Below are positions 7,530 to 62,170 of a stretch of DNA of 64,000 nucleotides, piece after piece. The notes beneath the pieces are model-generated. The model was not told where the DNA came from. It ran no database searches and saw only the letters and a list, made by a program, of their open reading frames with translations. This DNA comes from Opisthorchis felineus. Lineage: Eukaryota; Platyhelminthes; Trematoda; Opisthorchiida; Opisthorchiidae. Within the stretch, counting starts at the first letter, position 1; each line of letters starts with the position of its first letter. The stretch is from NCBI GenBank assembly GCA_004794785.1, contig SJOL01006405.1:785251-849250 (forward strand), read 5' to 3'. Both the position numbers and the translations under genes were made by a program.

Positions 7530-7830
7530 TTGTATAATCCATGTTCACATCATTTCCGTTTGAACAATCCTCCCCATGTCCTGGCGCAATTATTATAGGG
7601 AATGCACAGAAAACGGGGAAGAACTGGACTCGACTTTCGTTTTTATTAGAACTCATCAGCAGTGTATATCCTTGGTCATGCATAGAGTTTGAACTTTGGA
7701 CATGTGACATTCGAGTTGAACGTGTTACCACTACTCCAACATAAGCCGGGCGCATCTGAATTATCACATCTGAACAGCCGAATGTGTTCGCGCTTGAGCG
7801 AGGTGATTGCTTTGTCCAACGCTTCGAGAG
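7530..7830 (-). mobile_element. tRNA-headed SINE with hammerhead, family E (left copy)
   Basis: On the minus strand there is a 5' block containing TCGCTCAAGCG, an A-box-like head (TGGAGTAGTGGTAACACG), a B-box-like AAGTTCAAACTC, then a hammerhead at 7622-7665 and a tail with AATTGCGCCAGGACA. The 5' block, head, hammerhead and tail all recur in the plus copy at 7990-8290. The two copies therefore form an inverted pair of about 290-bp units separated by roughly 150 bp. A tail-only fragment lies at 28485-28600. The head carries Pol III-type promoter boxes, so transcription from its own promoter is plausible. Confidence 0.75.
7622..7665 (-). ncRNA. Hammerhead ribozyme, family E, near-intact
   Basis: Read on the minus strand: stem I CACTG, core CTGATGA (complement 7653-7659), stem II GTT/AAC closed by the usual G-C pair, then GAAA (complement 7635-7638). 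A short stem III GTCGAG and cleavage site GTC follow, then CAGT, which pairs back with ACTG to give four stem I pairs. Stem III looks like a single C-to-G change from the palindrome ACTCGAGT, which would weaken it. All catalytic core bases are present. This is hand-paired, and activity is untested. Confidence 0.75.
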
Positions 7831-7989
7831 TGATGTGAACGTGAATTCTACATATCCCGAAACCACCTACAACTAATCGAGACTTGTCCAGCAGGTTCCA
7901 AGCGTCCGTGGCGCTATTGAAATGGGTAGTCCTGATAGTCTGATCAGTCAGTCAGTCGACACAACCAGGATAATTACTGGGTCGAGTCG

Positions 7990-8290
7990 TCCAATAAACA
8001 AATCATATCGCTCAAGCGTGTTTGCCCATTCGGACGCGACAATTCAGAGTAGAGATAACACGTCTTCCTCGCATGTCGGAGGTCCCGCCACGGCCAAGGA
8101 TATGCACTGCTGATGAGCTCTCATGAGAATGAAACTCGAGCCTAGTGCTTGTCATCTTTCGTGCAGACTCACCAGAATAATTACGTCAGGACAGGAGCAG
8201 GATGGAAATGTTGGTTTGAAGATAGTAAGTTCAAAGTTTTTGAGTGAATTTTGATAACAGGTGAAAAAACAAGTTGGTCATAAAAACGTA
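7990..8290 (+). mobile_element. tRNA-headed SINE with hammerhead, family E (right copy)
   Basis: The order of blocks is as in the minus copy at 7530-7830: TCGCTCAAGCG, an A-box-like AGTAGAGATAACACG, a poorly kept B box, a hammerhead at 8104-8148, then a tail with AATTACGTCAGGACA. It diverges clearly from its partner, so the inverted pair is old or arose from two separate insertions. No coding capacity is expected; the small frame at 7922-8113 is a shadow. Confidence 0.7.
8104..8148 (+). ncRNA. Hammerhead ribozyme, family E
   Basis: Stem I is GCACTG (8104-8109) pairing with TAGTGC (8143-8148), six pairs including one T-G wobble. The core CTGATGA is at 8110-8116. Stem II (8117-8130) contains TCTC/GAGA pairing. 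GAAA is at 8131-8134. Stem III is CTCGAG followed by CC. The expected T at position 16.1 is C here (ACTCGAGC rather than ACTCGAGT). This should disturb the A15.1-U16.1 pair, so cleavage may be reduced. Confidence 0.7.
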
Positions 8291-8294
8291 GGGA

Positions 8295-10615
8295 AAGTTG
8301 TTGCACAATAGGAGACAGCAAGCAAGCAGAAAGTGATTATCCGAATTTGGTTGTGAGAAAACTCGTTGATTCCTCAAAAAGAAACACGCGGAATTTTCGA
8401 CAGAAACTACATATGACTTTATGTCCGGTGAGTATCCGTCAGGACTGTGCGGCGAATTACTGTAACAATAGGGCTAAACTCATGCGCCCTCAAAATAGTG
8501 GGCTTTTGAGAAAAGCACGTTTTCAACCAGCTATTCGGGGGGAGGGGACAAAAAACACTCAGAACAGCTTGGGTTTATTTGGTCTCCTGGAGGTTTTATT
8601 GAATTTTAAGACCCTAGAACCACTGCTTCTCGATTCGGACAATGAATCGCTTTTTGCAATATATTTTCGGCAACGCCCTCCAAGTGAGACCTTATTACGT
8701 TTGCTTTTTCGACGAGCTATTTCCAGCTCTCGTTCTCCTGTAGACTGACCATTGCAAGTTCAGTAAATGTGACAACTGGCCGCTAGCTTCCCCTGGCATC
8801 CTACTTGCTTCGATCGCATCCATAATTATTCATTGTGTTCAGGTCGTGGATCTTTATCAGATTAAAACCGGCTCAAACTGCCGTAGTTTTTTTGACAGGG
8901 TATGCGAAACTCGCTCATCCCAACCGGTATGATCTCCGGCTTTCCATTGTAGCGAACCTGGTAGTCGATTATCCCAGTTTGAGGCTTGCGAATTCGAACG
9001 GAGTATATTCACCCCCCTGGGATGTAATTTGTAGACAAAATGTAGCCATCTGCATCTGCCATCAGGTTGACGCTGGTGGAAGATGTATTCGGAACACTGT
9101 AAAAACTACAAAACATTCATTTTGTAACAAATAAAAGCCGTTTACAGGTGGTAAGGAGGACCCACTATCAAAGAGCTGTCGGATATAGTGATGATGATGG
9201 TGTGCGTGAAAGTTGGAAGGACTTACTGAGAGGAGTACTGCCGTGGCAGTGGTGACGAAGAGAGATAGACACGTCAGGTCCGGAAAAAGGGTTAGATGAT
9301 TGGAGTAGTTATTTGAAGAAGAGTAAAGTTGAGATGAATGACATTCTGAACTTGGTCAACTAAGTATACGGAATTTGTAATAAAAAAAGGTGTCTGAGAC
9401 GGTACGAAGAATTTTCGGGATACAAGCAAGGAATGCAAAGTGTACCGATTAGAAGGGGCTGTACGAAACCGTCCGTACAAGCACGGTGAAAACAGGGGTA
9501 GCTGAAAACAGAAAGAAACATAACGAACCGCGATGAAAATATGCAACAATTCAGAGGAGTTGAATTTGCCTTCACTGGTTGAACTTTATAGAGCAGTTTC
9601 GGAAATCCGGTGTCCATAATGTTCGTGGTTTGTATCCGGTCGTCAGAAATATGTAGGATGACAGAAAGGTGGAATGAATTCGAGGTGCAGTACCGAAGGT
9701 TATCTTTTTCAGCAAATGCAAGATTCTACACCCAATCGGCGGGAGAGGCTTTTTGAGATAGCACACTGAAAAGCAGGAAGTAACGTTCTTTCACAGAAGA
9801 GACCAGCTTATCGTGTATCGTGCTGTTTCCCATAGATCTTGGATTATCTGCCTTGCTTGACTGGGCCTTGTCATGATTGTTCAAATGTACCAGTTAGTTC
9901 AACTGCACTGCGAGCCACGTTGAGTCATGCATGGACAATCTGTTCCAGTTGAGTAGAAACTAAGTAAAAACCATTTTTTTGCGGTCTTGATGAGGGCGCG
10001 ATAGTGGACAGCAAACGTACTTCAGCTGCAGGTTGTCTCGGTCTAGCGGTCCCCAGAAGGACGGGACAAAGAGACGGCGTGAGTGGTATGCACTCACACG
10101 GCGGAAGGAGGCTTGCGACGTCAGACCAGCTATCCGAAAACAGACAAACATATGTAGGACGACACAAAGGAACATGAAGCCCCTAAGGGGAAAAAGTCAG
10201 TGAGGTTTTGGTTGACGGAACACATCAGAAAGTGAGTTAACTGAGTCTATCGATTTTCTCGATGCACGTCAGAGGTTTGAATTGGCCAGATTCCGGTCAG
10301 TAAGGATTGGAAAAGTGCATGTTAGGTGGAAGGAAACGTAAAAGAAACCAAGGGAATGGGTGCAACAAAGTAGTTGTGCAGAGCCTGTCGAGGGAATTTT
10401 CGGCGTGCACGTCTGCATTATCATGATTTTCAGATGTCCATCACATTCAGCCACTCCTGTCATTACACACTATGGAAAAGTAGTGACGTACTAATTGTTC
10501 AAGGCGCAGCGCAGCAAACAATGCCGTTAAACAAATAGTCTAGCGATGTTGCGTAAGGTAGGTAGCTCGAGTGAGCCGCTGGGTTGTTGGAATCTGTCGA
10601 GCGAGCTTGGTGGTT
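8295..10615. other. No recognised gene
   Basis: The longest frame is 133 codons at 8347-8748 (plus), without a motif. Two places about 500 bp apart (9648-9678 and 10148-10177) share a similar ATGTAGGA(T/C)GACA..AAAGG string, hinting at an old diverged duplication. I could not extend the match. Confidence 0.35.
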
Positions 10616-10619
10616 GGAG

Positions 10620-10662
10620 TTTAAGCCTTTCATCACCAATCGAAGTGACATCGTCAGTGCAC
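10620..10662 (-). ncRNA. Hammerhead-like relic, family B
   Basis: On the minus strand the core is CTGACGA (complement 10651-10657). It is followed by the family-B stem II TCACTTCGATTGGTGA and GAAA (complement 10628-10631). The stem III and cleavage site are altered to AGGCTT, where the copy at 34855 has ACGTT. The sequence past it resembles, in decayed form, the GAGCT..GCGAACAAGC flank at 34905. It is probably not active. Confidence 0.55.
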
Positions 10663-10664
10663 TG

Positions 10665-13490
10665 GTGCTCGTACTTCTTCACAGATTACTCACCTGACCA
10701 TTCCCTCCACCCACAACAGTCACTACTCGGTCGCATGTGTATTTATCGATCGGAGAGAGGCTGTCATCTGAGCGCTATTGGTTTGTGTGCGCTACTCAAA
10801 TGAAACATGACATGGTTCGCATGTGCCTGTGGTGTACGAAGTTTGGTCACAAAAGGCACAATTTGAGCTTGATTTAAGGAGCAACAAGTCAAGTCCACTG
10901 TGCTCCTTAAGCAGTGTGCTTTACTCCCGTAGATATCAAACTTGGATCTATTTGGACTTCAACGAAGGCTCACCCTTAATCTTACCGTGATCGTGTCCTA
11001 ATTAGGCCGTACGTGGTAGCCACGTGGGACTAGTCACGAGTAAGCGCTAATCGGCTTCGGCTTACCCCTGATCACACCTAAGCCCTGTGATTTATACCAC
11101 GGACTTCACTCATCTAGGCGGATGAACTAGGGAAGTTCAAACTTTTGGATAACCCAGATGCATGAGGATCCGGGTTGGAAGAAACAATCTGTACTTTGTG
11201 CTTCGCCATTGGGGTGACCGTTTGAAATAAAACTTATATGCACACTACGTGACGATAAGCGCTTAAGAGTATTTGAGCGTAGGCTGGTGTTCGGAAGTTA
11301 ATCTCTCAAAAGGGGAAGTCAAACTTCGACAGTTTCATTATGGTTTCCATTGTAGATCAGTTTTTACGTCTTCATACCTCATGTAAGTAATAAAGCCTTT
11401 TTATGTGGGGCTAATTTTACAGATTTCAGGCTCGTGGAGAATCCAGAAACAAAAATGTTCCATACTTCATTGTTGATGAAGACAACCTTTGAGACATTTT
11501 CTAATGACAAACCTCGAAAACTGTGTCAAGAACAATGAAACATTTAGCTGAGATTCGTAAGAGACTGCTGCCAACATCATCGTACATTGCGAATCGATGT
11601 TTGTTACAACTGCAGAATAACTACGAAAGTATTAAGGGAATAAGCAGCTTGGTAATTCTTTGCCGAGACTTGTATTCACTGGAGTAGGAAGGAAAGATGG
11701 CTGTCGTCCAAATTGCTGGCCGATTCACCTGTCACAGTCAACGATTGGAAGCACGCCAACTCAGTGCTAATCGGCACTGAATTTAAAGCTTGGCTCTTCA
11801 AAATGAGTCCAGTAACCTGGCAGAAAAAAACCGACACCTGTGCATTGTACCAACACCCATTGTAGATTTTGAAGACTTGTCTTTACGATGTAGTTTAACA
11901 TGCATTTTTCATTCAGTAACCCTGTCTCCAGACAAAGAGATGCTGTGGCATTCCTGCTTGGCCTCCTAACTGTAACTGTCACCTTAATTCCCATAGTGAA
12001 CCAACGAATTTACAGACGCCTTGTTGGTGGCATGGTTATATTCTTGAATTCATTTGTTACCACAAAGGGACTACTCCGCTCTTTTAACTCAGCCCACTCA
12101 GTAATTCAAGTCAACCGCCTGTTTCAGTCTGTTGACCTTGCATTAGTTTGGAAACGGAAGAGTGCTCTGCGGAGACGGATGTACTGAAGGCCAAAGTGGC
12201 CAGGCCAGTACGCAAAATTCCACATTTTTTGTGGGTAAGCAGTATACTGAAACCTACATAAGTGTCTGTCACACAAGGATCATAGAAATGACTGGAATCT
12301 CACAAGTGGAAATAAGGTGAACTCTATTTCTTGGACCGTGAAATTAAACGAGTATCCAGAAAATTCATACTGAGATTTCTAAAACAGACTAGTACGAAGG
12401 GAGAAGAGAAATTCCGTCAAACCCTAAATTGTCTCTGTCAGTTTGTCTTTTAAAAGCTGTGGGGCTTTCGTAATCATCACCCTTCCAAAGGAGAATTTTT
12501 TGTGCTATCAGTTTGGGCTTATTATCAGCTTTGATTGCTTTCTGAGCACCATCATCCAGGATAAGCTACAGTCCACAAACCTTCTTCGAGTATCTGTTCT
12601 TTCGTCTGCGAATATGGTACAAACTGTGCGGATCGTGTGACGTGACACCTGTCTCAGTAAATGACTGAGCATCTGTCATTGTGTCGTGGAACTCACAAAC
12701 TCAAGCGCATGACCAGCAGGATCGCGGCGTACTTAATTGCTACGAGTCGCCAGTTCGTTCCAGTTCTTCCTTTCAGACACACCGCAACGGCCAAAATCAT
12801 CGTTATTGATCTTCTTCGGCCTTCCGTCTGTCAAAAGGAAGGTCACATGAAAGTACTGACACTATATTGGTCAAACAACCACCTACCTCCGACTTATTCC
12901 AACTAACTGGCATAAATACGGGCATACTTCTGCATCATTACATGGATGGCATTTTCGGCCTTGTTTTCTGACCTTATCAAAAACGGTTTTTCGAAAAACA
13001 ACATAACCTCAGGAGTTTTGGGACAGTGGGCGAATTAATGAAACAAAGTGGGTGCTTGACTAGGGTGTTGGGCAAACAAGAATTCATTTAGGACGTTTCG
13101 ATTTATCTCTGTCGGTTTCTCGAGTAACGTGGCACTTTTGAATATCATCCCCCATGTACATTGTTCCGTTTCGTTACTGATGATAATTTTCAATGGAACG
13201 TTGCGCGGCTTAATGACAGTATGTTCTACTCCCCCCCCCAATGCTCAGTGTCGCTCTTCCCTAATTGTGAACTTGTAGGTGAATCAGTCGAGTTCACTGG
13301 TTTGCCCCTACAACATTGTGTCTTAGCCGACAATTCTGACACACAGGTGCTTCCTTCAGCTGTTTTTCGTACACACTATTGTGCACTTGGAATTCTCATT
13401 TCAAGAAATTTGAGCAGCGATCACGTGTCGCACTTCCACTTTTTTCTGGTTGCCATAGCATGGTTCAATTGGGTGCACTGTAGCACAATA
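10665..13490. other. No recognised gene
   Basis: Short frames only, for example 95 codons at 11900-12187 and 131 codons at 13161-13556 (plus, ending in the TG repeat). None carries a motif I recognise. A small inverted repeat lies at about 11010-11035 (ACGTGG..CCACGT). Confidence 0.35.
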
Positions 13491-13500
13491 CCTGCGTTCG

Positions 13501-13538
13501 TGTGTGTGTGTGTATGTGTGTGTGTGTGTGTGTGTGTG
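13501..13538 (+). repeat. (TG)n microsatellite
   Basis: About 19 TG units with one TA interruption near 13513. Confidence 0.95.
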
Positions 13539-13829: not shown

Positions 13830-14037
13830 AGAAATGGCGGCGGAAACAGTAACAATAATCGTTCAGATGTAACGCCTTTTTGGTGCCTTGCTGCCATGCA
13901 ACCCGAAGGAAGGAGCGCCCAGATTCTGCCAGTTGCCCAAGCTTGGACAGGAGCAGTCCTGATGCATGGTTTGGGTTCGAACCACGTACCTTCCGGTCCG
14001 TAAGCTGGCGACTTAAGCACTGAGCTATCTCGAGCAC
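13830..14037 (-). mobile_element. tRNA-headed SINE, family F
   Basis: On the minus strand it starts GAGATAGCTCAGTGCTTAAG (A-box-like, complement 14013-14032). A clear B box GTGGTTCGAACCC follows (complement 13971-13983), then a tail containing GGCAACTGGCAGAATC, GGTTGCATGGCAGCAAGGCACC and GCGTTACATCTGAACG. Head and tail both match the plus copy at 38140-38340. No hammerhead is seen in this family. The small frames on both strands here are shadows of the repeat. Confidence 0.8.
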
Positions 14038-14277: not shown

Positions 14278-14326
14278 ACAGTGACGAACATTAATGTTTT
14301 CGGGATCTCGTCATCAGGTCAGTATA
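14278..14326 (-). ncRNA. Hammerhead ribozyme, family C, at PLE 3' side
   Basis: On the minus strand: stem I ACTGAC before the core CTGATGA (complement 14311-14317), a nine-base stem II region (CGAGATCCC) that pairs poorly, and GAAA (complement 14298-14301). Stem III is the perfect palindrome AACATTAATGTT, then C and GTCACTGTG. The last strand pairs with the 5' side as GTCA/TGAC plus further pairs after one mismatch. Core, stem I and stem III are convincing; stem II is the weak point. It lies about 110 bp downstream of the PLE nuclease ORF on the same strand. Hammerheads are known in PLE terminal repeats, so the placement supports the call. Confidence 0.65.
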
Positions 14327-14437
14327 TATCTAATGGTTAAAATAGGAGCGAAAAATGAAATAGACAGCGAAGAGTGGTTAGTGAAATGCAAAACGTGGAG
14401 ACACGAACGACTGGTTGTCTGCGCCCCCACGTCGCAT

Positions 14438-15440
14438 CTAATTGGATGCTGTGAGACAGTCTAGAGGGTCGTTGAGTGACTTGGCCGGTTGATTCGTGTC
14501 ACACGACCAAGGCAGACTCAGCGTTCGTACGAAACGATGTTGACAGCACAGTACCGGGTTTCGCAGGCATATAGCGACTGCCTCAGCTGTAGTCAAGCGA
14601 CGCTGTTGGATAGATAACGGTAGTCTATTGGGTCCACGGTAAATGACATGAAATGACTCATTCGGAATGACTACGTGCCCGGTGTCAATTAGGTGGGACG
14701 CATTTGAGCTTTCGGCTGAACTGTTGAGTCTAGTGGTATTCCGGTAAGAGAGATGCTCACGTAGTCTCTTAGAAAGTTGCCGTGTCGTGCGCCCAACATA
14801 CTCCGCTGAACGGCAGCAGGAGAAAGAATAAACAACCATATTCTGGGTGAGCAATGTCATCTTGTCTTTGAAGTTTAAGTTGAGCAAGGGTTTGTTCTAA
14901 ACCAAGACCGCAGAGTTCCAGCCGGAAACGTGCGTCGTAGGGAATGAAACAAGCGGCGATTGTCTATGTCCGCAAACAGGTCACCTTTATACAGTAAACT
15001 CAAGTATATTGGCTTCTTTCCAACGGTCGTGATAGGCGGTTGGATAGGGCGATCGGACATATTCTTGGTTATCAATCTCTCCGGGTACCCATTGGAACGG
15101 AGCACGTTAACAATGTGTCGCAGTTCAGAGACCAGTGTATCAGCAGAGCAAATACACTTTGCTCGGTTTGTTAAAGTGTGAGTCAGGGTTCGTTTCCGCC
15201 TCAGTGGCACAAAACTCAGGAAGTTTGTGTACTATCCCGTCCACGTGGGCTTCCTGTAGACAGTCCTCTGAATTGAACCCGTGGAAAGTCTGACTAACTT
15301 AACGTCCAGGAAGTGGAAAGCGTTGCCACTTTCGGTTTCAAAGGTGAATTGAATAGAGGGGCGTGCTTGGTTAAAGTTGGTCAGGGGAGCATCCATTTCG
15401 GAACCGTTTAATACTAGCATAAAGTATCATCTTGTCATCC
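14438..15440 (-). mobile_element. Penelope-like element, RT C-terminus plus GIY-YIG nuclease (broken)
   Basis: Minus strand, 5' to 3'. A DDTF-like RT active-site remnant lies at about 15425-15435, one base out of frame. Next is LVLNGSEMDAPLTNFNQ followed by IQFTFETESGNAFHFLDVKL and YRKPTWTG, the RT end typical of PLEs. A TAG at about 15229-15231 interrupts an otherwise continuous frame that goes on to FVPLRRKRTLTHTLTNRA and NGYPERLI. A frameshift near 14885 leads into the nuclease frame. That frame has VVYSFSCCRSAEYVGRTTRQ, RLREHL and a C-terminal AEAVAICLRNPVLCC. The GIY-YIG hallmarks YVGRT, Arg and Glu are visible. The element is truncated 5' of the RT active site. The hammerhead at 14278 is probably its 3' end. 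Confidence 0.88.
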
Positions 15441-29163: not shown

Positions 29164-29250
29164 TCAGCAGTGTGATTAGCTCTCATTTAAACAGGGTCTT
29201 GTGTGACTGCTCACGTCACATGGCGTGGTAATGCTCAATTTTCCGACTGA
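29164..29250 (-). repeat. Family-D repeat, 5' arm fragment
   Basis: The string CAGCAGTGTGATTAGCTCTCATTTAAACAGG matches the block just outside the tRNA-like head of the family-D copy at 37573. Only this arm is present. Confidence 0.55.
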
Positions 29251-29269: not shown

Positions 29270-29590
29270 CCATTGTTATTGGCGAAATGCTCACACTTGC
29301 AGAATAAGTTGATTTTAGTGGAAGACTGGGTTGAATCCCAGTTGAATTTCTCGTTCATAGTACTCTTCAGCTAAATGTGCAGCCCGAAGATTGCCTCTTG
29401 TTTTAGTTGGTGTAATACTCGATATGTCGCGACACATTTCCAAGACGGTTGCTGAAAACTCTTTGACAGCTCACAAGCGGTCTTATCCCTCTTATCAGGT
29501 AGAAGAGGATTCCAAGTTTTTATCACCCTCATGTTCCTTTTGAGGCTTTTGTACAGCATATCTAGTTGAGGAAAACCACAAGCAAGAGAT
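29270..29590 (-). repeat. Family-A ribozyme repeat, decayed (left of inverted pair)
   Basis: It contains the family-A blocks TGGCGAAATGCTCACACTTGCA, GAATCCCAGTTGAATTTCTCG, GTGCAGCCCGAAGATTGCCTC and GAAAACTCTTTGACAGCTCAC. A hammerhead relic follows at 29469-29505: CTGATAA instead of CTGATGA, and the GAAA box is lost. Its partner in the opposite orientation is at 29600-29810. Confidence 0.65.
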
Positions 29591-29599
29591 TCAGCCGAG

Positions 29600-29810
29600 T
29601 TCATTTTCGTCTCCCGTCAGCACCAACTTAATTTGCAAAATGAGTGAATTTCACCAGTTGCGTGCAGTCCGGTATTCAAGTGGAACATATGCTTGACGAA
29701 ATCTTGGGGACTGCACTGATCTACTGAGCCCAAAGAAGGGTGAAACCGGTCATGCACTGTCGAAGATTCTTCAGGAGTTTTGTGAATACCAGAAAAATTT
29801 TCCATCCTGC
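29600..29810 (+). repeat. Family-A ribozyme repeat, decayed (right of inverted pair)
   Basis: Plus-oriented family-A hammerhead relic at about 29715-29770. It reads CTACTGAGCCCAAAGAAGGG, TGAAACCGGTC, then ATGCACTGTCGAAG. Stem II, GAAA and the ACCGGT stem III are kept. CTGATGA has lost three bases and reads CTGA, so it cannot cleave. The unit is the mirror of the copy at 29270-29590. Confidence 0.65.
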
Positions 29811-29814
29811 GGTG

Positions 29815-32800
29815 ATGAAGGATATGTATTTTGCACTTAGTGAGGTCTCAGATAATGAGATTTTCCGGGTAATCTAGAAGATGTGAGGCATTTCCGTACG
29901 ATTTTTCCTTAGATTCGGCGCATATGAGCCGTAAATCTAAGGTACCTTCAGGTCTATGTTATCCGATATTTGGTGACCGTAAGCCTTATGGACCGGTGTC
30001 AACGAGTCTGCATTACGATAACTGTTGTGCAGCTGGAGTTTCTACTGTAGACGACATCCAGCAGGAGAAACAGTGATGTTTTGGTAATCTAATGCACACG
30101 CCGAGCATTGTTTCCCTTACATCACTCAAAGTCGCCTGAACAAAGAAATGGTTAACCATTTTCCAGGAAGAGGATGCTAAATCTTTCGAGAAAAAAGGCG
30201 CAACTCATTTTCCAGAGGAAAGTTTACCTGATCACCCCGCTGTTTGACTGTAAGCCCCACACGTTATCTCAGCTAATCAATGGATTTCCAGTTGCCAGTT
30301 TGAGTGTTTAGAGATACTCGCACCTATAAATGTCTTCAGGTTGTCGACTTTGGTTCACTTCGTTCTATCTGCTGTTCCTTTGCACGACAAGTTCTTTCCA
30401 CTAACTCATTTTTGGGCGTCACTGAAAGTTTGGGCTGAAAACTACTGGAAACAGTAAAACCAAGGTCTCAGTCATTGTACATTTAAAGGAGTTTGTGCAG
30501 TAGTTCTTACCGTAGGAACGATCTCGAGGTAACGTTGCAACCTTTTGGACTATCAATGAAGCAGAACTCCCTGTTATTACAGAACAGCACGGCAGACGAA
30601 AACGAAATCTACCTGATCTATTCAGTAGAACCGTATCCAGTGCAGTTTAATCTGATATAATTGCTCCATATGTCAATTATCGCGTAAGTTCATTAGATGG
30701 GAATTGCTATAGGATGTACTGATAAAGACCCACTATGGTCACCTGCGCCGTTAGTATAATTCTTTTAGAGTTATCAGGCAGTATGTCAAACGACAAAGTT
30801 GTAGTGACCATGCAGCCCTGTTCCTTGGTGATGGTTAATTTTTTCATCTTCAGAGCGACCAAATCACTTCAAGTATCATGTTGCTCGCATTGAACTTAGA
30901 GATGCCCACCTGTGTGTCATGTTAGTTCGACATTTGTGCGGTAATTACAAAGGAACTGATGGTTGCGGATGCATACGTTATGCGGCCATACTCTTTCAGA
31001 TACCTTGCATTCACACGTAGGAAACATCAAATCGATTCACACAAACTAGTGTTTGGCACACAATGCATGAACCACATCTGCGGGTGGTGTGGAACTAGCA
31101 CACTAGTGCACAATGCAAGCAGCTTGTATGGAATTTCTGAGTGCAAATCAGCTGATAAGCGTCAACGCGCCATATATGGCTTCAATTTGGTTTGTGATAC
31201 GTATCAATCAATGCATTTACAGGTGCGCACGCACGTAACTGACCAATCAGAGCCCAGTGTCCGTTTAGAGACACGTGCTGTAGTCTCATGCGTTCGTAAG
31301 ATGTCGGCTTTGTGACGGAGAAAAGTGAATCAGCTCGCCAGTCCTGTCCCGAAATTGGTCGTGGACTATCAAATACAAATAAGAGAACCTTATTACTGCA
31401 TCCTTTTGTTACGACATTGTTATATCCGCACTGCGCTTTGCGTTAACATAGTAGCGGGAGGATGTTCGGTGTGTTGCTGCTTGTCGAACGATTCCATAAT
31501 TAACACAGGGCTAGTAAGATTTCAAGAGAAAGGGTTAAAATGACTATACTGAGAAATACACCAATTTGACCCATGAGTAAAATATCCACAAAATAATTGT
31601 TATTGACCCAGATGCAGCCGCCTTCTAATGCCATTCGGAGGCGGGTTCGGTAATTCTGTGTGAATCTTTGTTGTAATTGTTGTCTACCGTAAATGGTCAC
31701 AGTGTACTTCATACAGAATAAGTACACTCCGATTGGAAAGTTTAGACAGCAAACACAGCCAGACAAATATCCAATGATCATCCCAAGACGGGTATCGTGC
31801 GGTACGCAGAGATTCAACCCTAAATGTTGTTGTCTGTGGGGAACATCGGGAGTGTAGTAAAGACACCATGACGAATGGCGATACTCGTGAAGAATAGCCT
31901 CATTGTTCAAAACGAAATCACTCACTGATGAGATTGCTACACAGTATAAAACATTAATTTTGGTTGTCTACGCTCTCTGTTCTCCGAGGAATATCTTCCA
32001 TGTTGCAGCTGAACGTATTCCAACACAGGGACAGTACTGTGCAGATAAACTGAGTTGAGTCGATGACAATTCCCGTACATGGCCATGCGGTTGTGTGCGG
32101 CTGATGTTCGGACTAAGTATCTCACTACTCACTAAGATATCCTCGAACAGAAGCGTCTTGCATCCGGAGGTATTTCACGAATTTCAAATGGGTTTGTCGT
32201 TAAAATTTTTATAGTGCACCACCGCAGTGATAATCCCCACCAAATACAGGCGAAAGAGGCATTTTCAGTTGGTTAGTGCCTACATTACCACCCTGAAGAG
32301 AGATTGACTTGAGAAGAGGGACCTTCTGGCTTCCTTTGAGAAGGGGCTTCTATTCGGGTAGGATGCATCGAACTATTAGTTGAGCCCACGAAGAACAGCA
32401 GTCCCTTCATAAAAATACTTGCACTAGGTAATTACCATCATGCAAAATACTTTCACGGGAAATGTCTTCCCAAAAAACTCGGGTGCTTACTGTTCTCGTG
32501 GAACTTACTCTCTGAAAGATGGTTCAACTGTGGCATCTTTTTAGTGCATAGCTGCCGTTCAACTCGCAGTAGGCACGAGGACTGCGATACTACCAGATGG
32601 ACCACTGCTAGACACAAGCAGTCAAAAGGCAAGAGTAGGGCCAGAAGCACTGATTTTTTGGTCAGTAATTTCGTGCCTTATCTCTTCAGCTATCTTGAAG
32701 TTGCTATGAATAAAACCAACTACTGATTCAATCAAGCAAAACAGAACACAATCATTTTGGATTTGAAGTTGCTTCTAATATCATGCATCTCTTTACCTAA

Positions 32801-33549: not shown

Positions 33550-33725
33550 AGGAAAAGTGGCCGAAAGGTTAAGTATTCAGACTACTATTCGGTAGTTTAT
33601 GGATTCAAGACTCCTTAGAGTTCCATGCTATTCACACTGCTGATGATTGTTACTAGGGATGAAACAGCTGTACAGTGCTTTTTGCTCTTCAGCATAGATT
33701 AGTATTACTTACAGGATGAAATCTT
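33550..33725 (+). mobile_element. tRNA-headed SINE with intact-looking hammerhead, family D
   Basis: The A-box-like GTGGCCGAAAGGTTAAG (33557-33573) is followed by the B-box-like TATGGATTCAAGACTCC (33598-33614). The hammerhead is at 33635-33677, and a tail ends near TTACAGGATGAAATC. The same order of Pol III-type head then hammerhead is the layout of schistosome Sm-alpha SINEs. Related copies here are at 4118, 37370, 50720 and 57690 (all minus) and a head-only piece at 55140. Confidence 0.8.
33635..33677 (+). ncRNA. Hammerhead ribozyme, family D, best copy
   Basis: Stem I CACTG (33635-33639) pairs perfectly with CAGTG (33673-33677). The core CTGATGA is at 33640-33646 and GAAA at 33661-33664. 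Stem III is the palindrome ACAGCTGT with no loop (33664-33671), and the cleavage-site base is A at 33672. A loopless four-pair stem III cannot fold well in one molecule but can pair between two, as in dimeric hammerheads. Stem II (TTGTTACTAGGGAT) pairs poorly and is the weak point. Confidence 0.72.
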
Positions 33726-33774
33726 AATTGAAAATATCAGGATGGAGATAGACAGCGGATCTGAAGGCGTCCAT

Positions 33775-34695: not shown

Positions 34696-34735
34696 GTAGA
34701 TGGTCGTTGGCTTGTTCGCTGAGCTGGGCAATTTG

Positions 34736-34780
34736 ATTACAAACGTTTCATCACCAATGGAGGTGACATCATCAATGCGT
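34736..34780 (-). ncRNA. Family-B hammerhead, left arm, C3 mutated
   Basis: On the minus strand it reads TTGATGA (complement 34769-34775), where the right arm has CTGATGA. The same stem II with TCACC/GGTGA, GAAA, and ACGT stem III follow. Loss of C3 should abolish cleavage. Confidence 0.6.
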
Positions 34781-34854
34781 TATTGGGGAGCGTAGTGATG
34801 CGTAGCGATGGCACAACTACCAATCCATCGCTACGCATCACTACGCTCCCCAAT

Positions 34855-34900
34855 AACGCACTGATGATGTCACCTCGATTGGTGATGAAACGTTTGCAAT
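34855..34900 (+). ncRNA. Hammerhead ribozyme, family B, core intact
   Basis: The core CTGATGA is at 34861-34867. Stem II, TGTCACC/GGTGAT around a CGATT loop, is at 34868-34886. GAAA is at 34887-34890, then CGTT: stem III is the four-base palindrome ACGT, and the cleavage-site base is T. TGC after the site pairs with GCA before the core to give three stem I pairs. Stem I is short and stem III is too small for a monomer, so any activity may need a dimer. Confidence 0.6.
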
Positions 34901-34939
34901 CAAATTGCCCAGCTCAGCGAACAAGCCAACGACCATAGA

Positions 34940-35834: not shown

Positions 35835-36539
35835 CAAATTTCAGTGCTAAACTTCACCCCAGAAAGCGCCACTTTAGATCGATATCTTTGGGTGTTCTCC
35901 GAAGCAGGCAAAAACTTCATATCCACAAAATTTTTGGACGAAAGGATACCTCGTATCGTTTGCTAACCCGTACACTTTATTAGCTGATTAACGTGTACGT
36001 CCTTTTCAGTTTATGTGTTCTGACAGGCCCAAAAAGAACGTGAAAGAATTGAAGTTTTTCTTGCATGCTGTTTGAATGCAGCTTATTTAACTTTGAAAGC
36101 ATTTCAAAAAGGCAGGAAGCTTGAAAACTCAAAGTGAGTACCAGGAGAATATTTTTTGCACACACAACAATAAACTGTGGGGCGGAGTGAGCTACCAAAA
36201 AATACCGGTGCTTTTTTCACCTCGCATGACAGAGGAGAGCATACATGTTATGTCCACGTGATGCATTTCCACTTCACAGGAACTCATAGTGAATGGTTCA
36301 TGTAAGTTGCCATTTTTGTGTCAGCGTTTGTAAATGATTCATCTTAGTCATGTGATAAGGTTTCATATTTCAGCAAAACATAATACCGGGTTGCAGCATG
36401 TGTGCAGCTCGGCATGTGATAAAATCACGTGTTGGTGGGTCCGGACTACATCCTGAGCACGGCTTATGCTTACTAATATCCAGTTGGAAATGCAGGACAA
36501 ACCACCGGATGCTTTTGGTGAACTCCTACAAATCTACTG

Positions 36540-36540
<1 letters not shown>
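35835..36540. other. No recognised gene
   Basis: Nothing beyond a 72-codon minus frame at 35980-36198 and the frames that read through the CTAT repeat. Confidence 0.35.

Positions 36541-36629
<89 letters not shown>
36541..36629 (+). repeat. (CTAT)22 microsatellite
   Basis: An uninterrupted CTAT run. The YLSI repeats in frames here are translations of it and not protein. Confidence 0.98.
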
Positions 36630-38137: not shown

Positions 38138-38340
38138 TGATGGCTCAGTGGTTGGAGTGCGAGTTTACTGACCGGAAGTTTCGTGACTCGAACCCGACCT
38201 CTGCCTCTCGACTTCCCCTGTCTAGGCTTGGGCAACCTGGCAGCATTCCAGCCCTCGTGCTTCCTGCGAGTGGCATGGCAGCTAGGCGCTGAATAGGTGT
38301 TACAGCTGAACGCGTTCATGGGTTAATAAACGAACAGTAA
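38138..38340 (+). mobile_element. tRNA-headed SINE, family F
   Basis: The A-box-like GATGGCTCAGTGGTTGGAG (38140 on) and B-box-like GTGACTCGAACCCGACC (38182-38198) are at tRNA-like spacing. A tail follows: GGCTTGGGCAACCTGGCAGC, GCGAGTGGCATGGCAGC, GTGTTACAGCTGAACG and a final AATAAACGAACAGTAAACC. It matches the minus copy at 13830-14037 through head and tail. No ribozyme core is present. Transcription by Pol III from the internal boxes is the expected mode for such elements. Confidence 0.82.
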
Positions 38341-51149: not shown

Positions 51150-51381
51150 TCGGTTCGCCTTTCTTTAGGCGATCACGTAACCAACAGCTTGTTTTTCGAC
51201 AGCCCACGACCGGTTTCGCCCTTCTTGGGGCTAATCAGGCAGGCGCAATCCCCGATTTTTCGTTGTTCTAATTGAACCCAAATTGTACGAAATTAGCAAA
51301 ATACACTCATTTGCAAACAAATTTGGTTTCGCCGGAGACTCACCTGAAACCTATTTGAATCTCTCGTTTATGATGTTTTCA
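51150..51381 (-). mobile_element. Family-A ribozyme repeat (left of inverted pair)
   Basis: It carries the hammerhead at 51202-51244, then CCCCGATTTTTCGTTGTTCTA, TTGAACCCAAATTGTACG, ACACTCATTTGCAAACAAAT, CGGAGACTCACCTG and GAATCTCTCGTTTATGATG. It joins end to end with an oppositely oriented unit at 51382-51700. No coding capacity or Pol III head is seen, unlike families D and E. It resembles a roughly 300-nt retrozyme-like or PLE-terminal unit. Confidence 0.75.
51202..51244 (-). ncRNA. Hammerhead, family A, one core base lost
   Basis: On the minus strand: stem I GCCTGC with GTGGGC (six pairs counting G-T wobbles), and a core reading CTGATTA (complement 51232-51238) in place of CTGATGA. Stem II GCCC/GGGC with loop CAAGAA is perfect. 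GAAA is intact, stem III is the palindrome ACCGGT, and the cleavage-site base is C. G8 is replaced by T. G8 is a catalytic residue of hammerheads, so this copy should be inactive despite its perfect fold. Confidence 0.8.
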
Positions 51382-51700
51382 AGTAGATTGGGTTCGAGTA
51401 AAACGTAAGTTTTGCTGAAACTCGGAGACTTTGCCTATCTGATGAGCCCCAAGATGGGCGAAACCGGTCGTGGGTTGTCGAAGAATTTTCAGCAACCTTG
51501 TGAGTAGTGCATTACGAATATACATGTATCGCGATATCTCGAATATCGTAGTAACTGAAACATGAGGCGGCCTGGCGCAGCACATTCAGTTGCTTGAAAA
51601 CATCATAAACGAGAGATTCAGCTGGGTTCCAGGTGAGTCTCTCGCAAAACCAAATTTGTTTGCAACTGAGTGTATTTCGCAACTGCTTGTTTGTTTCAGG
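51382..51700 (+). mobile_element. Family-A ribozyme repeat (right of inverted pair)
   Basis: A plus-oriented unit: GATTGGGTTCGAGTAAAACG, the hammerhead at 51433-51475, GTTGTCGAAGAATTTTCAGC, TCGAATATCGTAGTAACTG, ACATGAGGCGGCCTGGCGCA, CATCATAAACGAGAGATTCAGC and GTTTGCAACTGAGTG. The block order is the exact reverse complement of the minus units, which defines the family-A unit as about 300 bp. Confidence 0.78.
51433..51475 (+). ncRNA. Hammerhead ribozyme, family A, best copy
   Basis: Stem I GCCTAT (51433-51438) pairs with GTGGGT (51470-51475) through six pairs, three of them G-T wobbles. The core CTGATGA is at 51439-51445. Stem II GCCC/GGGC with loop CAAGAT is at 51446-51459, closed by G-C as in the consensus. 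GAAA is at 51460-51463. Stem III is ACCGGT, a loopless palindrome (51463-51468). The cleavage-site base is C at 51469. Every conserved core base is present. Three base pairs with no loop cannot close within one strand. Two molecules can form a six-pair stem III, so a dimeric ribozyme is expected. Confidence 0.85.
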
Positions 51701-51704: not shown

Positions 51705-54700
51705 GATCCACAGTAAGCCCAGCCTTTCGCTCGGCCGGCGGCTGTCAACAGTACATGTTAGAACCATTACCCAAAAGTGGTGTGGCATGAAGTCTCTTAA
51801 ACTGAGGTTATCCGGATCAACCAACAGGTAGTCACGTGATACTACTGCTAAATATGAGAAGCGTAGATTAGAAAACGATTAACAAATGCTGTGAACGTCC
51901 GGTGGTCGAAAGGTTTGCCATGTTTGACCAATATAGAAAACGTTTGTACTATCTTGTAATGTTAGCAGAACACAAATGACACAAGTGGTTAATTCTGCTT
52001 GTTATTCCGACTGATAAACAGGGTGAGAATGTGAGGACATTGATCCACCACACAAGTCCATTAACAGACCATTCACATGGCACCGCACAGCCGTGACGAA
52101 AATGAATAAAAATCATTCCTGCAGGACAGTACCATACAATCTGCGTCCAATGCATAGTCCAGCCATTCGACCGTCTTCCCACTACTTTCTGTTTGCCTTT
52201 GTAACTGAAGTCTCTTTGTTTTCCTCACTGGGGGTTCATTTAACTGACATGCGACCCATTCTACCTGGTTATCCAGGTGTGTGTGTGAAGAAACGGCGCT
52301 TCGAAGTGATCACAAGACAAACATCAGTTTCACAGACAACTGAAGCAAACATTGAATACCTTCCTAGTGTTTTCAAGAACAAAAGCTCGGTATTAAACTG
52401 AAATTCTACGATAATATGTACCGCTTTTGTTTTTCTCAACCAACACAATGTTTATTGTGGTGCCCAGGAAAGTTGTGTAGCGGTAGAACAGGAAGATTAC
52501 ACGGTTTTCACTGAGGAAAAATCACTTAGTATGCAAAGTCAGTCATGCAAAACTTGAGCAATGCTACCATAAGGTTTTCAACTTTGAATGCAAAGCAATT
52601 AGTAATACAAGAATTGATTAGTTCGCCGTTCATCAGTGAAGTTGACCTCCTGAGACCGAGTAGTACATAGTAGTACAAGTATATGAAATGAATAATTAAT
52701 CTTTTCAGTTGGCGCATTCCAATCAGTTCACTGTGGAATGACAAAAAAAACATTTAAGGCACACCTAATACGTGTATCTGAGGAGGATGCAAGCACGAAC
52801 GAGGGCTGTACAGTTTTCTACTGGCTCAGGTTGCTACTACATTTGGATATCGATGGTATAGGATGGGCGTTATATGAGGCCCACGATTGGGGATAAGCTG
52901 TGGGATTTCGCCATGTCACTGCATGTGTCTAGACATTGATTACAAGGAGAGGCATCAAACGATGTGAAAAAACTGCTAAACCCCGTTGTTAGGCTTTTCG
53001 TGCTCACATTTCGGATTATGCAGTGTTCACTTGGGGCAATGAACAGCGAGGCGACCTTTCAGTTGCCAAAGGAACAACACGAATGAGAAAGGGAATCTAG
53101 TCTAACAGTATCACACCATCCAGAGAGTCACCACTCGATCAGATGTCACATCAGAATTACTACGTTGGTTCTCCGAAACATATGTGCAGGGTTCTGAAAG
53201 CACTGCTGTTCAACTATTGTCTGTCTCCCTTCCTGTCCAAAGCGCAGTGGACGTGAAACATAGCCACGAATCATTAGCGGACACATTATAGAATCGAAGA
53301 CGCTGCCTTGTACTGACTAAATGATGTCAAATCGTAGTTAAATTTGCCCGAGCGAGACTAAATGTAAAGCCGGGCACAAACCTTCTGGCAATTTGCTGCC
53401 AGTACTGTCATCCGATAAGACACTGCTACTCAGAGAACTGAATTCTCAAGCACATACATCCAAGCATACCAGTCATTATAGGGTTCAGAACACAGACCGA
53501 CGAAACTTAGTGTTTTCGTGACCTCTTCTTCTGGCCAGCACAGATCGAGGGTCTAACAAACCATAAGCGAGCGATCCATACAAGTAGAACAAGAATAAAG
53601 CGGAGTCTACTGGTAAAAGTGTGAAAACTGTTGTCGTAACGATTGATTGGCCTGAGTAGACCATGGTCACGTGAGCAGAACATGGAAGACTCAATGCGTG
53701 TAAAAAAAAGCTTTCTGAGTACACAGACTCTGTTTGCCTCATCTGTGGCCAGACACTAATATCGGACGGATCTTGGTAGGTAGACAGGTGGTTGGTACAG
53801 TATTCAGAAGGCATCGTAAGAACTAATCACGTGACTCGTATCAGCCATGTGAGCGGCAGCTATGCTGGTAATCGACCTTATTGATCGGATTGTCAGCCAA
53901 AACAGGTTATTCTCCTCTATTAACTTGTATAACTGCCGTGTCGTGCGCCCCTAGATTATTCTTGAGATACAGGGGCATCAGCCGAGTGATCATCAATGAC
54001 TCTTTGAGTGGAGTGGCAGGGAAGGTTATCCGAAGTGTGTGATGTAGACACCGACTAGGACAGTCGGTGGCCATATCTCTCTAGAAAGGAAGATTGATGA
54101 AGATAGTTTTTCCCTCTTGACTGTGGTCGGTTAGGCCTTCTCAGTTGTAGCAATTAGTTGTTTTGAGATAAATCTGTCTGGATAATCGCTTCCATGAAGC
54201 AAGCTAACTAGCAGGTGATATTTGGCCCCAAATTCGCTTTAAGGACACATTTTTCTTGCCTTATAACCAAACTAAATTTCGGTCATATTTTAGTGGGACA
54301 AAGCTGTTGAAATTAGTGTATTGTCCCGTCCTAGTCGATTTACGGTAAACCGAAAGTCTAACTGAACCATCAGTGACTCTTGGTGGCTGCACATCCAGGA
54401 ACTACATTCAAATCAAGCAAAAATAATACCAAGATTTTGTTGTTCAAAATTATTCTTCGGAAATAGCGGAAACATCATGGCGGTTAACCGGGGGCGAATC
54501 TTGGGCGCTGATCACAATCACAACGACGCTGATTTCCAGAGTGTTTTTCATAACTTCGTTTGTATATTAGTGGTTTTACGAGGCGAATCATGGATTTGGA
54601 CTGTTGTTAAAATTAATCTGAGTCGTCAGTCGAGGGTTAGTCACTGCAGAGGTTATGTGGTCACAAAACACTCGTTGGAATAGTCCCCCTGCTGTCTCCA

Positions 54701-56085: not shown

Positions 56086-56089
56086 GAAT

Positions 56090-56330: not shown

Positions 56331-56702
56331 TGCATTGTGATATGAGCGCTTTCCTCGTCAAAAACTCTGATCTATGAACTGATAAACCCTATACTCGGAC
56401 AACATGTTGTCTGATAGTACAAAGAGTCTGCTTCCGGACACTTGCTTTCATTGTTAGAAGGATCGACTGTTGCCTGCAAGGTGACAATTTCTAGACAACA
56501 ATAAAAATTCCGATGGGTGCAAAGAAGCAACGTAAAAGCAAACCATTGTGGATGCAAAGTAAACCGACTATCCCTACTTGTCAATGCTTATAAGCGTAAG
56601 TATATATGTTGCTCAATATGACTTAGCTTCAGAGTCTGTTGGGCTGATCACGGGTCACTCTACCGGAGGACTACTCATAAGTTTGCCGAAGACTCTTCGG
56701 CA

Positions 56703-56747
56703 GCCCACAACTGGTTTCATCCATGCACTTCGGCTCATCAGTTAGGC
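56703..56747 (-). ncRNA. Hammerhead relic, family A, first tandem unit
   Basis: CTGATGA (complement 56735-56741) and GAAA (complement 56715-56718) are intact and stem I GCCTAA/GTGGGC is mostly kept. The stem II region is 16 bases long and no longer pairs, and stem III is ACCAGT, not the palindrome. Confidence 0.6.
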
Positions 56748-56995
56748 ATGGTACTCGAGTTTCCGTCAACTTCATGTTTCAATTGAACCCAAATTGTACA
56801 CAATTGGCAAAAGACACTCCTTTGCACATCATTTTGGTTTTAAATGGAGACTCAGCTAAGTCCCAGCTCAATCTCTCGTTTATGATATTCCTCAACTAAG
56901 TGGGCTCTACAAGGCCACCTCATGTTTGAGCTAATGCGATGTTCAAAATGTCGCAGTATATTTTCTTAGAGGAAACTGCTGGAAACTCTTCGACA

Positions 56996-57035
56996 GGCTA
57001 CAACCGGTTTCGCCCTTCTTGGGTGGTAGGAGCAT
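56996..57035 (-). ncRNA. Hammerhead relic, family A, second tandem unit
   Basis: Stem II (CCC/GGG), GAAA and the ACCGGT stem III are perfect. The CTGATGA box is replaced by CCTACCA, so it is inactive. Confidence 0.6.
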
Positions 57036-57244
57036 GTAGGAGCAGCCCCCGAGTTTTCACCAACCTTATGTTCTACCTGAACTGAATTCAGCTGAAATTC
57101 GGCTAAATCCCCAATGAAAACCAAATTGGCGAGCAAATGAGTGTAGTTCGCGAATTTCTTACCAGCTGTGGAAAAACACAATAATAATTCCATAGATGTC
57201 ATGATCTACCGTTTCAGTTGCCGTGGGTGACCCCCGTCAGGAAC

Positions 57245-57685: not shown

Positions 57686-57689
57686 GTCA

Positions 57690-58030: not shown

Positions 58031-58034
58031 TATG

Positions 58035-58500: not shown

Positions 58501-58505
58501 ATTTG

Positions 58506-58529
58506 ATTGGTCCACCTTGTCCTATAAAT
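58506..58529 (+). promoter_or_regulatory. TATA box and inverted CCAAT for the PAN-like gene
   Basis: TATAAAT at 58523-58529 lies 41 bases before the ATG at 58570, so transcription would start near 58553 with a very short 5' UTR. ATTGG, an inverted CCAAT, is at 58506-58510, closer to the TATA than is usual. Confidence 0.5.
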
Positions 58530-58569
58530 TACTTGTTCTGCCCGAAACATTCGCTGGCCAATTCCGACG

Positions 58570-58815
58570 ATGAAGCCAGCAATTTTCGGCAGCATCTCTC
58601 TGCTACACCTGGTGATAGTGCTTGCAGGTGGCTCTGACTGTCTTACATTGCCAGAAGACCACGAATTTTCTCCATTATGTCCCGGTCATCGCATACAATG
58701 GTTCCGCTCAAGAATGATTGCGAATGGACCCAAACATCGTCTTCACACCGAATCTTTGGAACAATGTCAGCATGGATGCATGAAAAAGGTTCATTGTATT
58801 GCTGTGGAATATGAG
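58570..58815 (+). CDS. First exon of a secreted PAN/apple-like protein
   Basis: ATG at 58570 begins 82 codons ending at a consensus splice donor (GAG/GTAAGC, 58813-58821) in phase 0. Residues 1-23 form a signal peptide with a hydrophobic core (ISLLHLVIVLAGG). The mature part has CPGHRIQWF (Cys37), then SLEQCQHGCMKKVHCIAVEY with Cys66, Cys70 and Cys76. That spacing, S..(E/Q)C...C.....C.A..Y, is typical of the first half of PAN/apple domains. The remaining cysteines should come from later exons. A frame-compatible candidate with a TATGCAG acceptor lies at 60207-60389 (CGTSPEKEHVV to a stop at 60387-60389), but its domain fit is poor. PAN proteins bind carbohydrate or protein. The role here is unknown; secretion is inferred. 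Confidence 0.65.
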
Positions 58816-58919
58816 GTAAGCAGTATAGTCTACAAAGTGTATTCTTATGTGCTCATCATTTGTTCGCAAGATTGTTGTTTATCCCAAACCCCAATAACAA
58901 ATAGCCATATATAATAAAA

Positions 58920-60475: not shown

Positions 60476-60479
60476 ATCT

Positions 60480-61135: not shown

Positions 61136-61139
61136 CCAG

Positions 61140-61890
61140 TTTGGTGACCGCCACTGCCTCTGGTATTCTAATCGGTCTTCTTGTTCGCTCGTAAGATGGC
61201 GGTGGAATCAAAAACCCTCTCTGTCAATACGGCTGAACAAGAAGCTCTCATGAATGCACTCAAATTTGACGTTAAAAATGTCTTTCATGAGGATTACTTT
61301 GCCGGCTCCAAAATTCCTTTGAAAATAAGATTCACTTTAGAGGAAGTCCAACATTAGACTCAACAATCCATCGACGGTAGCAGCCAATGAAAGTTCATTG
61401 TGGGCAATGAAATCAACAAAATAAACCTAATTTTAGACGGAGTTACAAGCAAGACCCGTCCTTGGTAGCATCACAGTTCAGTCACCCTGATAATTTGACC
61501 ATCGAAAATGGCCAAGATAGTTCCGCTGAATGTTAAGTTGCCACCGGGTTAGAACCTCACCGATGTATCCCATCAATAAACACAACTATGGAATAAAACT
61601 AAGGGTGGTGTGAAAAGATTTGGAAATTTCAACTTGAGATTTTGCCTTGTAAGTGAAGCAAATGCTTACCGAAAGCGCTAGTACAAAACGGGTATGTTCT
61701 CATCTAGACAGCTTTGTCCTCTGGATTGTTTTGTAAAACACGAATAGAACGACAATATTTACTCAACTTTATCCACTAGCTGTCAGTATTTTACTTAGCA
61801 TTAGGAATATTTCATGTCAAGAGGACAAAATACAGAGACGCACGGTAGAGGTTGAAAATCACCCTTGTAAAAGAGGATGAGAAACTTTCA
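61140..61890. other. No firm gene; short plus frame with start
   Basis: A plus frame beginning ATGGCGGTGG at 61195 runs about 53 codons (AVESKTLSVNTAEQEALMNA, then ALKFDVKNVFHED) to a stop near 61356. The LS....E...L...LKF pattern is loosely like the N-terminus of PLE proteins, but this is weak. A family-D-like tail (TTTTGCCTTGTAAGTGAAGC) lies near 61640. Confidence 0.3.
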
Positions 61891-61894
61891 TGAA

Positions 61895-62170
61895 GAACTC
61901 AACTTAATGTCTCGTTTATGATATTCTTCAGCTGAATTTGCTGCGCAAAGGCCGCCTCATGTTTCATTTGGTAAGATATTCGAGATACCATAGTATATTT
62001 CCATACAGGAAACTTATCATAAGGTTGCCGAAAACTTTTCGACAGCTCACGACCGGTTTCGCCCTTCTTGGGTCTCATCAGGTAGACACCGTCCAATTTG
62101 AGTTCAAGTAGAACATAAGGTTGAGGAGAGATTCCGTTGAGTCTCTAGTGGAAACTCAGTTGATATGCAA
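61895..62170 (-). mobile_element. Family-A ribozyme repeat with intact core
   Basis: Blocks CTCGTTTATGATATTCTTCAGC, GCGCAAAGGCCGCCTCATG, AGATATTCGAGATACCATAG and GAAAACTTTTCGACAGCTCAC lead into the hammerhead at 62045-62087. Past 62097 the sequence GTTCAAGTAGAACATAAGG is the reverse complement of the block that should follow. The unit therefore flips orientation there, as in the inverted pairs elsewhere. Confidence 0.72.
62045..62087 (-). ncRNA. Hammerhead ribozyme, family A, core intact
   Basis: The core CTGATGA (complement 62075-62081), GAAA (complement 62057-62060), the ACCGGT stem III and cleavage-site C are intact. Stem II GACCC/GGGC has one A-G mismatch. Stem I GTCTAC/GTGAGC keeps the first three pairs, with a C-A mismatch next. 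It could be weakly active. Confidence 0.75.

Follow-up and report, generated by a model that had tools for sequence, protein, structure and literature searches.

In a 64,000-nt stretch of the trematode Opisthorchis felineus (contig SJOL01006405.1, positions 785,251 to 849,250 of the forward strand; hereafter the window), we find the remains of five hammerhead-bearing retroelement families, A to E, which are of three known kinds: Penelope-like elements (PLEs) with a GIY-YIG endonuclease (C and probably B), a retrozyme-like unit (A) and families that resemble short interspersed elements, or SINEs (D and E). What is new here is that close opposite-strand pairs, both of these repeats (up to 500 bp apart) and of PLE endonucleases (up to 6 kb apart), are consistently head-to-head. 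We put at about 0.58 the probability that PLE-mediated two-sided insertion underlies the five families; most of the families may owe their copies to a single type of mobile-element enzyme.

Results

Close opposite-strand copies lie head-to-head

Close pairs were taken as same-family neighbours no more than 500 bp apart, with D/E overlaps resolved to the better hit and weaker same-family overlaps dropped. Among those on opposite strands, 19 are head-to-head and none is tail-to-tail (two-sided p 3.8e-6). By family, the counts of head-to-head, tail-to-tail and same-strand pairs are 11/0/11 for A, 3/0/0 for B, 3/0/3 for D and 2/0/0 for E; four of the 11 A pairs come from loci L001–L008, which had been chosen for a hammerhead and not for orientation. 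Genome-wide pattern matches show the same orientation: A pairs within 1 kb are head-to-head in seven cases and tail-to-tail in none (first 100 places listed of 5,099), and C pairs within 5 kb are head-to-head in five and tail-to-tail in none, with three same-strand C pairs at 2.6–3.4 kb (first 100 places listed of 104). PLE endonucleases within 6 kb of each other form eight head-to-head pairs, no tail-to-tail pair and one tandem (150 scored of 4,166 candidates), one pair, C334, being counted in both the C set and the endonuclease set.

A more conventional account would have the hammerheads as passengers of SINEs and old PLEs, with A, D and E moved by the reverse transcriptase of a long interspersed element (LINE) and the inverted pairs produced by twin priming or nesting. 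Nested insertion, however, predicts tail-to-tail and head-to-head pairs in equal numbers, as against the 19:0 seen. Twin priming leaves an inverted piece whose outer end lies inside the element and which lacks the element 3' end, whereas both outer ends lie within 14 nt of the model 3' end in 3/3 B, 2/3 D and 2/2 E pairs; seven A head-to-head structures moreover sit within one direct repeat. We regard this account as unlikely, even with the A- and B-box-like motifs seen by eye in D and E, the remnants of a reverse transcriptase judged by eye to be of LINE type at 2691–2856 (−) and 63660–63998 (+) (weak Pfam RVT_1 matches below cut-off), and the two head-to-head close pairs of a ribozyme-free SINE, S3, in its favour. 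The first of these remnants adjoins a run of N, either masked or unsequenced, at about 1752–2690.

Some A inserts carry outer direct repeats, and most of those measured end 44–53 nt past the ribozyme cut

The A unit is a non-coding repeat of ~300 bp whose parts follow the ring order X (~85 nt), Y (~120 nt, containing the ribozyme) and Z (~85 nt). Of 26 A structures, eight are enclosed by an outer direct repeat 8 bp or longer, and seven of these eight are head-to-head. The repeats measure 8, 13, 8 and 16 bp in four of 15 structures and 12, 11, 8 and 10 bp in four of a further eight, for which wider flanks were used; three additional A structures, again with wider flanks, have none of at least 8 bp. 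Random position pairs reach this length in 3 of 340 cases, and in 24 of 360 with the wider flanks. One 8-mer at locus L016 was discarded as an outer repeat because it lies inside the element, and another at 29237/29796, from one of two wider-flank re-tests, was left out of the count.

The Y-side end was measured for seven of the eight repeat-flanked inserts: five stop 44–53 nt past the cleavage site, the other two 11 and 13 nt past it. Local alignments of type C stop 39–48 nt past the cleavage site in 8 of 14 cases. The five A inserts thus end near where the PLE copies stop matching, and the pattern fits two-sided target-primed insertion by PLE enzymes. In animals, PLEs carry tandem and inverted pseudo-long terminal repeats (pLTRs), most often head-to-head, and described copies are flanked by 8–10-bp duplications (PMC3846280). 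A PLE enzyme has been found to cleave and extend both target strands in vitro, initiating synthesis inside the RNA (PMC11167929).

Head-to-head structures could also arise by self-priming on an antisense PLE transcript, as a paper on rotifer PLEs favours on the strength of palindromes at the inverted junction (PMC3846280), and the B pair at 34700–34936 is itself a near-perfect palindrome. Several A composites, on the other hand, have unlike outer ends (an X-end on one side and a Y-end on the other) and variable inner junctions, as expected from two separate cDNAs, and the in vitro extension of both target strands likewise speaks for priming at both target ends. Self-priming seems to us improbable, more so than mobilisation by a LINE.

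Hammerhead motifs at seven sites

An earlier note on this DNA, made from its letters, had listed well-kept hammerhead cores at seven positions. The core CTGANGA...GAAA is present at all of them (core starts 7659−, 8110+, 14317−, 33640+, 34861+, 51439+ and 62081−), and the stems noted there read back as claimed at each, both E copies having one mismatch in stem III. A family-blind descriptor (core, palindromic or near-palindromic stem III, H17 not G and stem I of at least 3 bp) matches all seven and nothing else in the window, versus an average of 0.093, and never more than 1, over 300 dinucleotide shuffles; it was relaxed only once the seven sites were known, and its stricter first form gave four hits (33640+, 34861+, 51439+ and 62081−) versus 0.033 per shuffle (150 shuffles). 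The bare core is less telling, with 17 occurrences in the window versus 4.5 per shuffled window. The type I requirement (A15.1–U16.1, H17 not G) holds at every site except 8110+, which lacks U16.1 (A.C), and stems I, II and III pair strictly at four of the seven. We take the observation of hammerhead motifs at these sites as confirmed. Many further window copies found with nhmmer profiles of A, B, D and E have broken cores.

In the Rfam covariance-model search, which the note had proposed as a check, no match in the whole window reaches gathering scores, and sub-threshold matches cover three of the seven sites. The best models are Hammerhead_HH9 (RF02275) for four A copies (51423+, 32.5 bits; 51256−; 62096−; and 7008−, partial) and Hammerhead_1 (RF00163) for one E copy (7665−, 23.2 bits). 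At 8110, 14317, 33640 and 34861 there is no Rfam hammerhead hit even below threshold, three of these sites having also been searched as short stretches. Rfam was set aside as sole judge because it gives no hammerhead match at these four. A reading in which the sites arose by chance or are decayed, with no significance as ribozymes, might be argued from the Rfam result, from the frequency of bare cores in shuffled windows and from the folds of isolated transcripts (see Discussion). We consider this highly improbable in view of the seven descriptor hits, the D/E covariation described below and the genome counts: the 31-nt A ribozyme occurs in 5,099 copies at up to one mismatch and the 32-nt C motif in 104 copies at up to two, both with a backward control of 0.

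Abundance, conservation and covariation

The five families can be told apart and stand in separate element contexts, as the earlier note had held. They are not five independent types, since iterated D and E profiles hit each other's copies. The counts of A and C speak to repeat abundance, not to selection. Ribozyme-carrying repeats are abundant in the 630-Mb genome. Whole-genome pattern matches show this for A and C, and nhmmer profiles built from window copies show it for A, B, D and E in 24 unselected stretches of 10 kb each (203,355 bases other than N). Per 64 kb, the unselected stretches hold 6.6 A, 2.5 B, 6.3 D and 2.2 E copies, and the window, by the same profiles, 14, 6, 6 and 4. The window, whose density the note had remarked on, is thus only ~1–2.4 times as rich as unselected DNA. 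Intact-looking ribozymes number seven in the window versus one in the first 20 unselected stretches, but the window was picked by a reader for striking features. The note's overall interpretation, that retroelements using ribozymes shape this genome, is partly supported.

The expectation that the core would be kept better than its flanks, with covariation in the stems, met a mixed outcome. In C, core columns are 0.96 and 1.0 conserved versus 0.86–0.88 in the flanks (14 copies); the corresponding values for core and remaining columns are 0.718 and 0.661 for A (eight window copies) and 0.755 and 0.615 for B (five window copies). Across 15 aligned D and E copies, the covariation score is 0.291 versus 0.212 for shuffles, a value reached by 3 of 500; the number of paired cells is reached by 3 of 500 shuffles and that of cells changed on both sides by 7 of 500. 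Pairs with double-sided change (370/500) and pair types (169/500) are not above shuffles, and the excess stems partly from inheritance of the D/E split. Among single-mismatch C copies, 6 of 39 changes fall in the 9 core positions of 32, an avoidance short of significance (p 0.11).

Type C follows a PLE endonuclease

The window C ribozyme lies ~120 nt beyond a GIY-YIG frame that has three relatives of ~50% identity. In a genome search for this endonuclease, 150 matches were scored of 4,166 first-look candidates, and the downstream flanks of 20 (the top 19 by score plus one from the contig of the window) were inspected. Type C sequence follows 14 of the 20, with the core region in 13 and an intact core in 11, and none follows six; these loci favour relatives of the window element because the query resembled the window's own. 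C shows two traits characteristic of PLEs, a GIY-YIG endonuclease upstream of the hammerhead and tandem or inverted terminal repeats. Work cited on hammerhead-bearing PLEs includes Cervera and de la Pena 2014 and Lunse 2017.

A further pair of PLE endonuclease fragments, both decayed and less closely related to the query, lie at 12571–12894 (+) and 53735–54019 (−), the second near a weak type C flank match at 53570–53486. At locus L045 (177–911, downstream orientation), a C ribozyme, an E copy and a head-to-head D pair follow one another within ~0.7 kb past a PLE endonuclease. One endonuclease match, G000:C1838:442826-443179, falls in an open frame whose reported length of 1,928 aa far exceeds that of the other listed frames.

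Type A is retrozyme-like; B, D and E

At one locus A forms a tandem array with a 307-bp period and units 99–100% identical, in which we count 11 exact ribozymes by pattern and, separately, 12 Y parts, the last running into N; elsewhere, same-strand neighbours are spaced 293–307 bp apart (among the first 100 places listed of 5,099). A has the tandem units of ~150–400 bp, each with a type I hammerhead, that are one mark of metazoan retrozymes. Its helix III is a single A-U pair closed by a palindromic CCGG, much as the axolotl Amex1 ribozyme has a one-pair helix III with a palindromic tetraloop (PMC7229834). A description of A as a plain head-to-tail retrozyme was abandoned because of its recurrent inverted junctions.

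B has the minimal hammerhead motif described for PLEs (PMC6155905, PMC7761336) and, judging by this likeness, probably belongs with them; beside the window B copies no endonuclease match was found. The B profile matches seven stretches of the window. In the left hammerhead of the palindrome at 34700–34936, C3 is changed to T; Rfam scores the palindrome much as it would a microRNA precursor, though short of the gathering threshold, presumably because it is a hairpin.

D and E appear from their sequences to be related, SINE-like families. Besides the mutual profile matches, they have stem I CACTG/CAGTG in common, and their better copies keep paired stems II and III (~UCCC/GGGA and CAGCTG in D; ~GCTCT/AGAGC and CTCGAG in E). 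The A- and B-box-like motifs upstream of both were seen by eye; Rfam and ARAGORN report no tRNA. The D ribozyme resembles Amex2, which has a two-pair helix III and U.U at the base of helix II (PMC7229834, PMC7761336). Viral and prokaryote sequence collections scanned for the A motif or the endonuclease gave no relative.

Table 1. Hammerheads, element copies and associated features, in window coordinates
Family	Position	Strand	Feature	Support
A	29279..29787	−	second composite, order y'x'YZX, decayed ribozymes; no 8-bp outer repeat at standard search width	
A	51187..51194	.	left copy of 8-bp direct repeat GCTTGTTT, putative target-site duplication	
A	51195..51684	+	composite of order y'x'YZX, head-to-head: an inverted copy whose hammerhead (51238−) is broken, followed by the direct copy that holds 51439+	
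A	51433..51475	+	hammerhead with intact core; 6-bp stem I, GCCC/GGGC stem II, A-U + CCGG helix III	descriptor; sub-threshold Rfam
A	51685..51692	.	right copy of 8-bp direct repeat GCTTGTTT of composite 51195–51684	
A	56671..57153	−	x'YZXY, two hammerhead regions ~290 nt apart, both altered; no outer repeat found	
A	62045..62087	−	hammerhead, intact core, one stem I mismatch	descriptor; sub-threshold Rfam
B	34700..34936	.	two head-to-head copies that make up a palindrome with 97% complementary 112-nt arms and a 13-nt spacer	
B	34858..34897	+	hammerhead, intact core, stem II TCACC/GGTGA with U.U at base, stem III ACGT	descriptor
C	14282..14321	−	hammerhead, intact core, stem III AACATTAATGTT, weak stem II CGAGATCCC	
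C	14441..14896	−	GIY-YIG endonuclease frame of the PLE carrying type C	Pfam GIY-YIG 19.7 bits, under cut-off 22.6
D	33556..33759	+	SINE-like copy; A-box-like TGGCCGAAAGG and degenerate B-box-like motif upstream of ribozyme, by eye	nhmmer
D	33635..33677	+	hammerhead, stem I CACTG/CAGTG, U.U at stem II base, stem III ACAGCTGT	descriptor
E	7563..8205	.	head-to-head pair: 7776–7563 (−) and 8009–8205 (+)	
E	7623..7663	−	hammerhead, stem III AGTCGAGT	
E	8104..8148	+	hammerhead, stem III ACTCGAGC, A.C at 15.1–16.1	

The window also holds S3, a tRNA-like SINE without a hammerhead that was used as a control (3456–3529, 13862–14028, 32523–32693 and 38140–38310), a frame with a weak, below-cut-off PAN-domain match at 58528–58911 (+) and an (ATCT)n microsatellite of ~25 units at 36532–36629.

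Discussion

Our reading of these arrangements is that hammerhead elements and PLEs enter the genome by one and the same two-sided route. Transcripts of one or several units would carry the hammerhead and presumably be cleaved by it. The RNA, either uncut or re-closed to a circle, would be taken up by a PLE reverse transcriptase/endonuclease, and reverse transcription would begin ~45–50 nt 3' of the cleavage site and run back through the ribozyme, sometimes around several units. Priming would take place at each end of the opened target, and the two cDNAs would grow toward each other and be joined at their 5' ends, leaving a head-to-head insert, sometimes with tandem units, within one short target duplication. 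Priming at both target ends would make the cDNA 5' ends meet and turn the 3' ends outward, which is the arrangement observed. Because the start lies ~45 nt past the cut, an already-cut RNA would yield only ~45 nt of cDNA, so that uncut multimers or circles would be needed; the tandem units, including the 307-bp array, are compatible with either. We infer ribozyme activity, circular RNA and a part for PLE enzymes in moving families A, B, D and E; for the mechanism we draw mostly on A and the PLEs. The more specific proposal, that A units and D and E elements are mobilised by Penelope-type enzymes, with the two ends of the cut target serving as primers, an uncut or circular RNA as template and synthesis starting ~45–50 nt 3' of the ribozyme cut, is a tentative one to which we give slightly less than an even chance.

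Several observations weigh against this reading. An outer repeat of at least 8 bp is missing in 18 of the 26 A structures and in all seven B, D and E pairs, and the 11-mer at L055, the weakest of the eight, is a repetitive AGTTT stretch overlapping the element end. No PLE endonuclease match was found at L001–L032, and A, D or E pieces beside the 20 inspected endonucleases occur at two loci only (L045 and L048), which their density could explain. One tail-to-tail endonuclease pair lies at 9 kb, past the 6-kb limit. Of four close pairs of S3 (25 copies), two are head-to-head, one tail-to-tail and one same-strand, a control too small for specificity to ribozyme families to be established. Short-word BLAST reported no sequence that A has in common with B, C, D or E. 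On the side of the ribozymes, covariation among the A window copies is not above shuffles, minimum-energy folds of the seven isolated transcripts, judged by eye, did not give the full hammerhead, and the C stem II hardly pairs; four listed C copies read CGAGATCTC there, permitting GAG/CTC. Finally, in vitro mobilisation of a PLE proceeds without cleavage by a hammerhead (PMC11167929).

Each kind of element found here has counterparts among known systems. Metazoan non-long-terminal-repeat retrozymes (PMC7229834, PMC7761336) are, like A, small non-coding tandem units with a type I hammerhead and a weak helix III; unlike those described, A also forms head-to-head composites, some within one direct repeat, and the main text of PMC7229834 contains no match to the words 'inverted' or 'head-to-head'. 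Endonuclease-containing PLEs with hammerheads (PMC3846280, PMC11167929) have a GIY-YIG domain, a hammerhead between the endonuclease and the 3' end, and tandem or head-to-head copies, as does C and probably B. They differ in that C has a 12-nt palindromic stem III and a weak stem II, and in that B was not found beside an endonuclease. The schistosome Sm-alpha/Sj-alpha SINE-like elements and W-elements (PMC8490949, which cites Ferbeyre 1998 and Laha 2000 for them) are short repeats with a type I hammerhead and so resemble D and E by description, whereas D and E are found in head-to-head pairs as well (three and two, respectively).

Mobilisation of retrozymes by PLEs is itself already a published suggestion, so far only proposed, in which shared hammerheads, tandem copies and co-existence make PLEs a strong candidate (PMC7229834). 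It is in keeping with the report that one endonuclease-bearing animal PLE copied a host gene in trans (PMC3846280). Among the titles and abstracts listed in searches of open-licence papers, we found no report of a head-to-head, outer-repeat insertion footprint for retrozymes.

If the reading proposed here is true, head-to-head inserts would record mobilisation by PLEs, and the hammerhead would be a mark common to the RNAs that serve as substrates. The hammerhead-cut monomer could then not be the direct template, and the RNA would have to escape cleavage or be closed again. A footprint common to hammerhead elements and resident PLEs, consisting of head-to-head inserts, one outer direct repeat and an end point ~45–50 nt past the ribozyme cut, would make PLE mobilisation testable in any sequenced genome.

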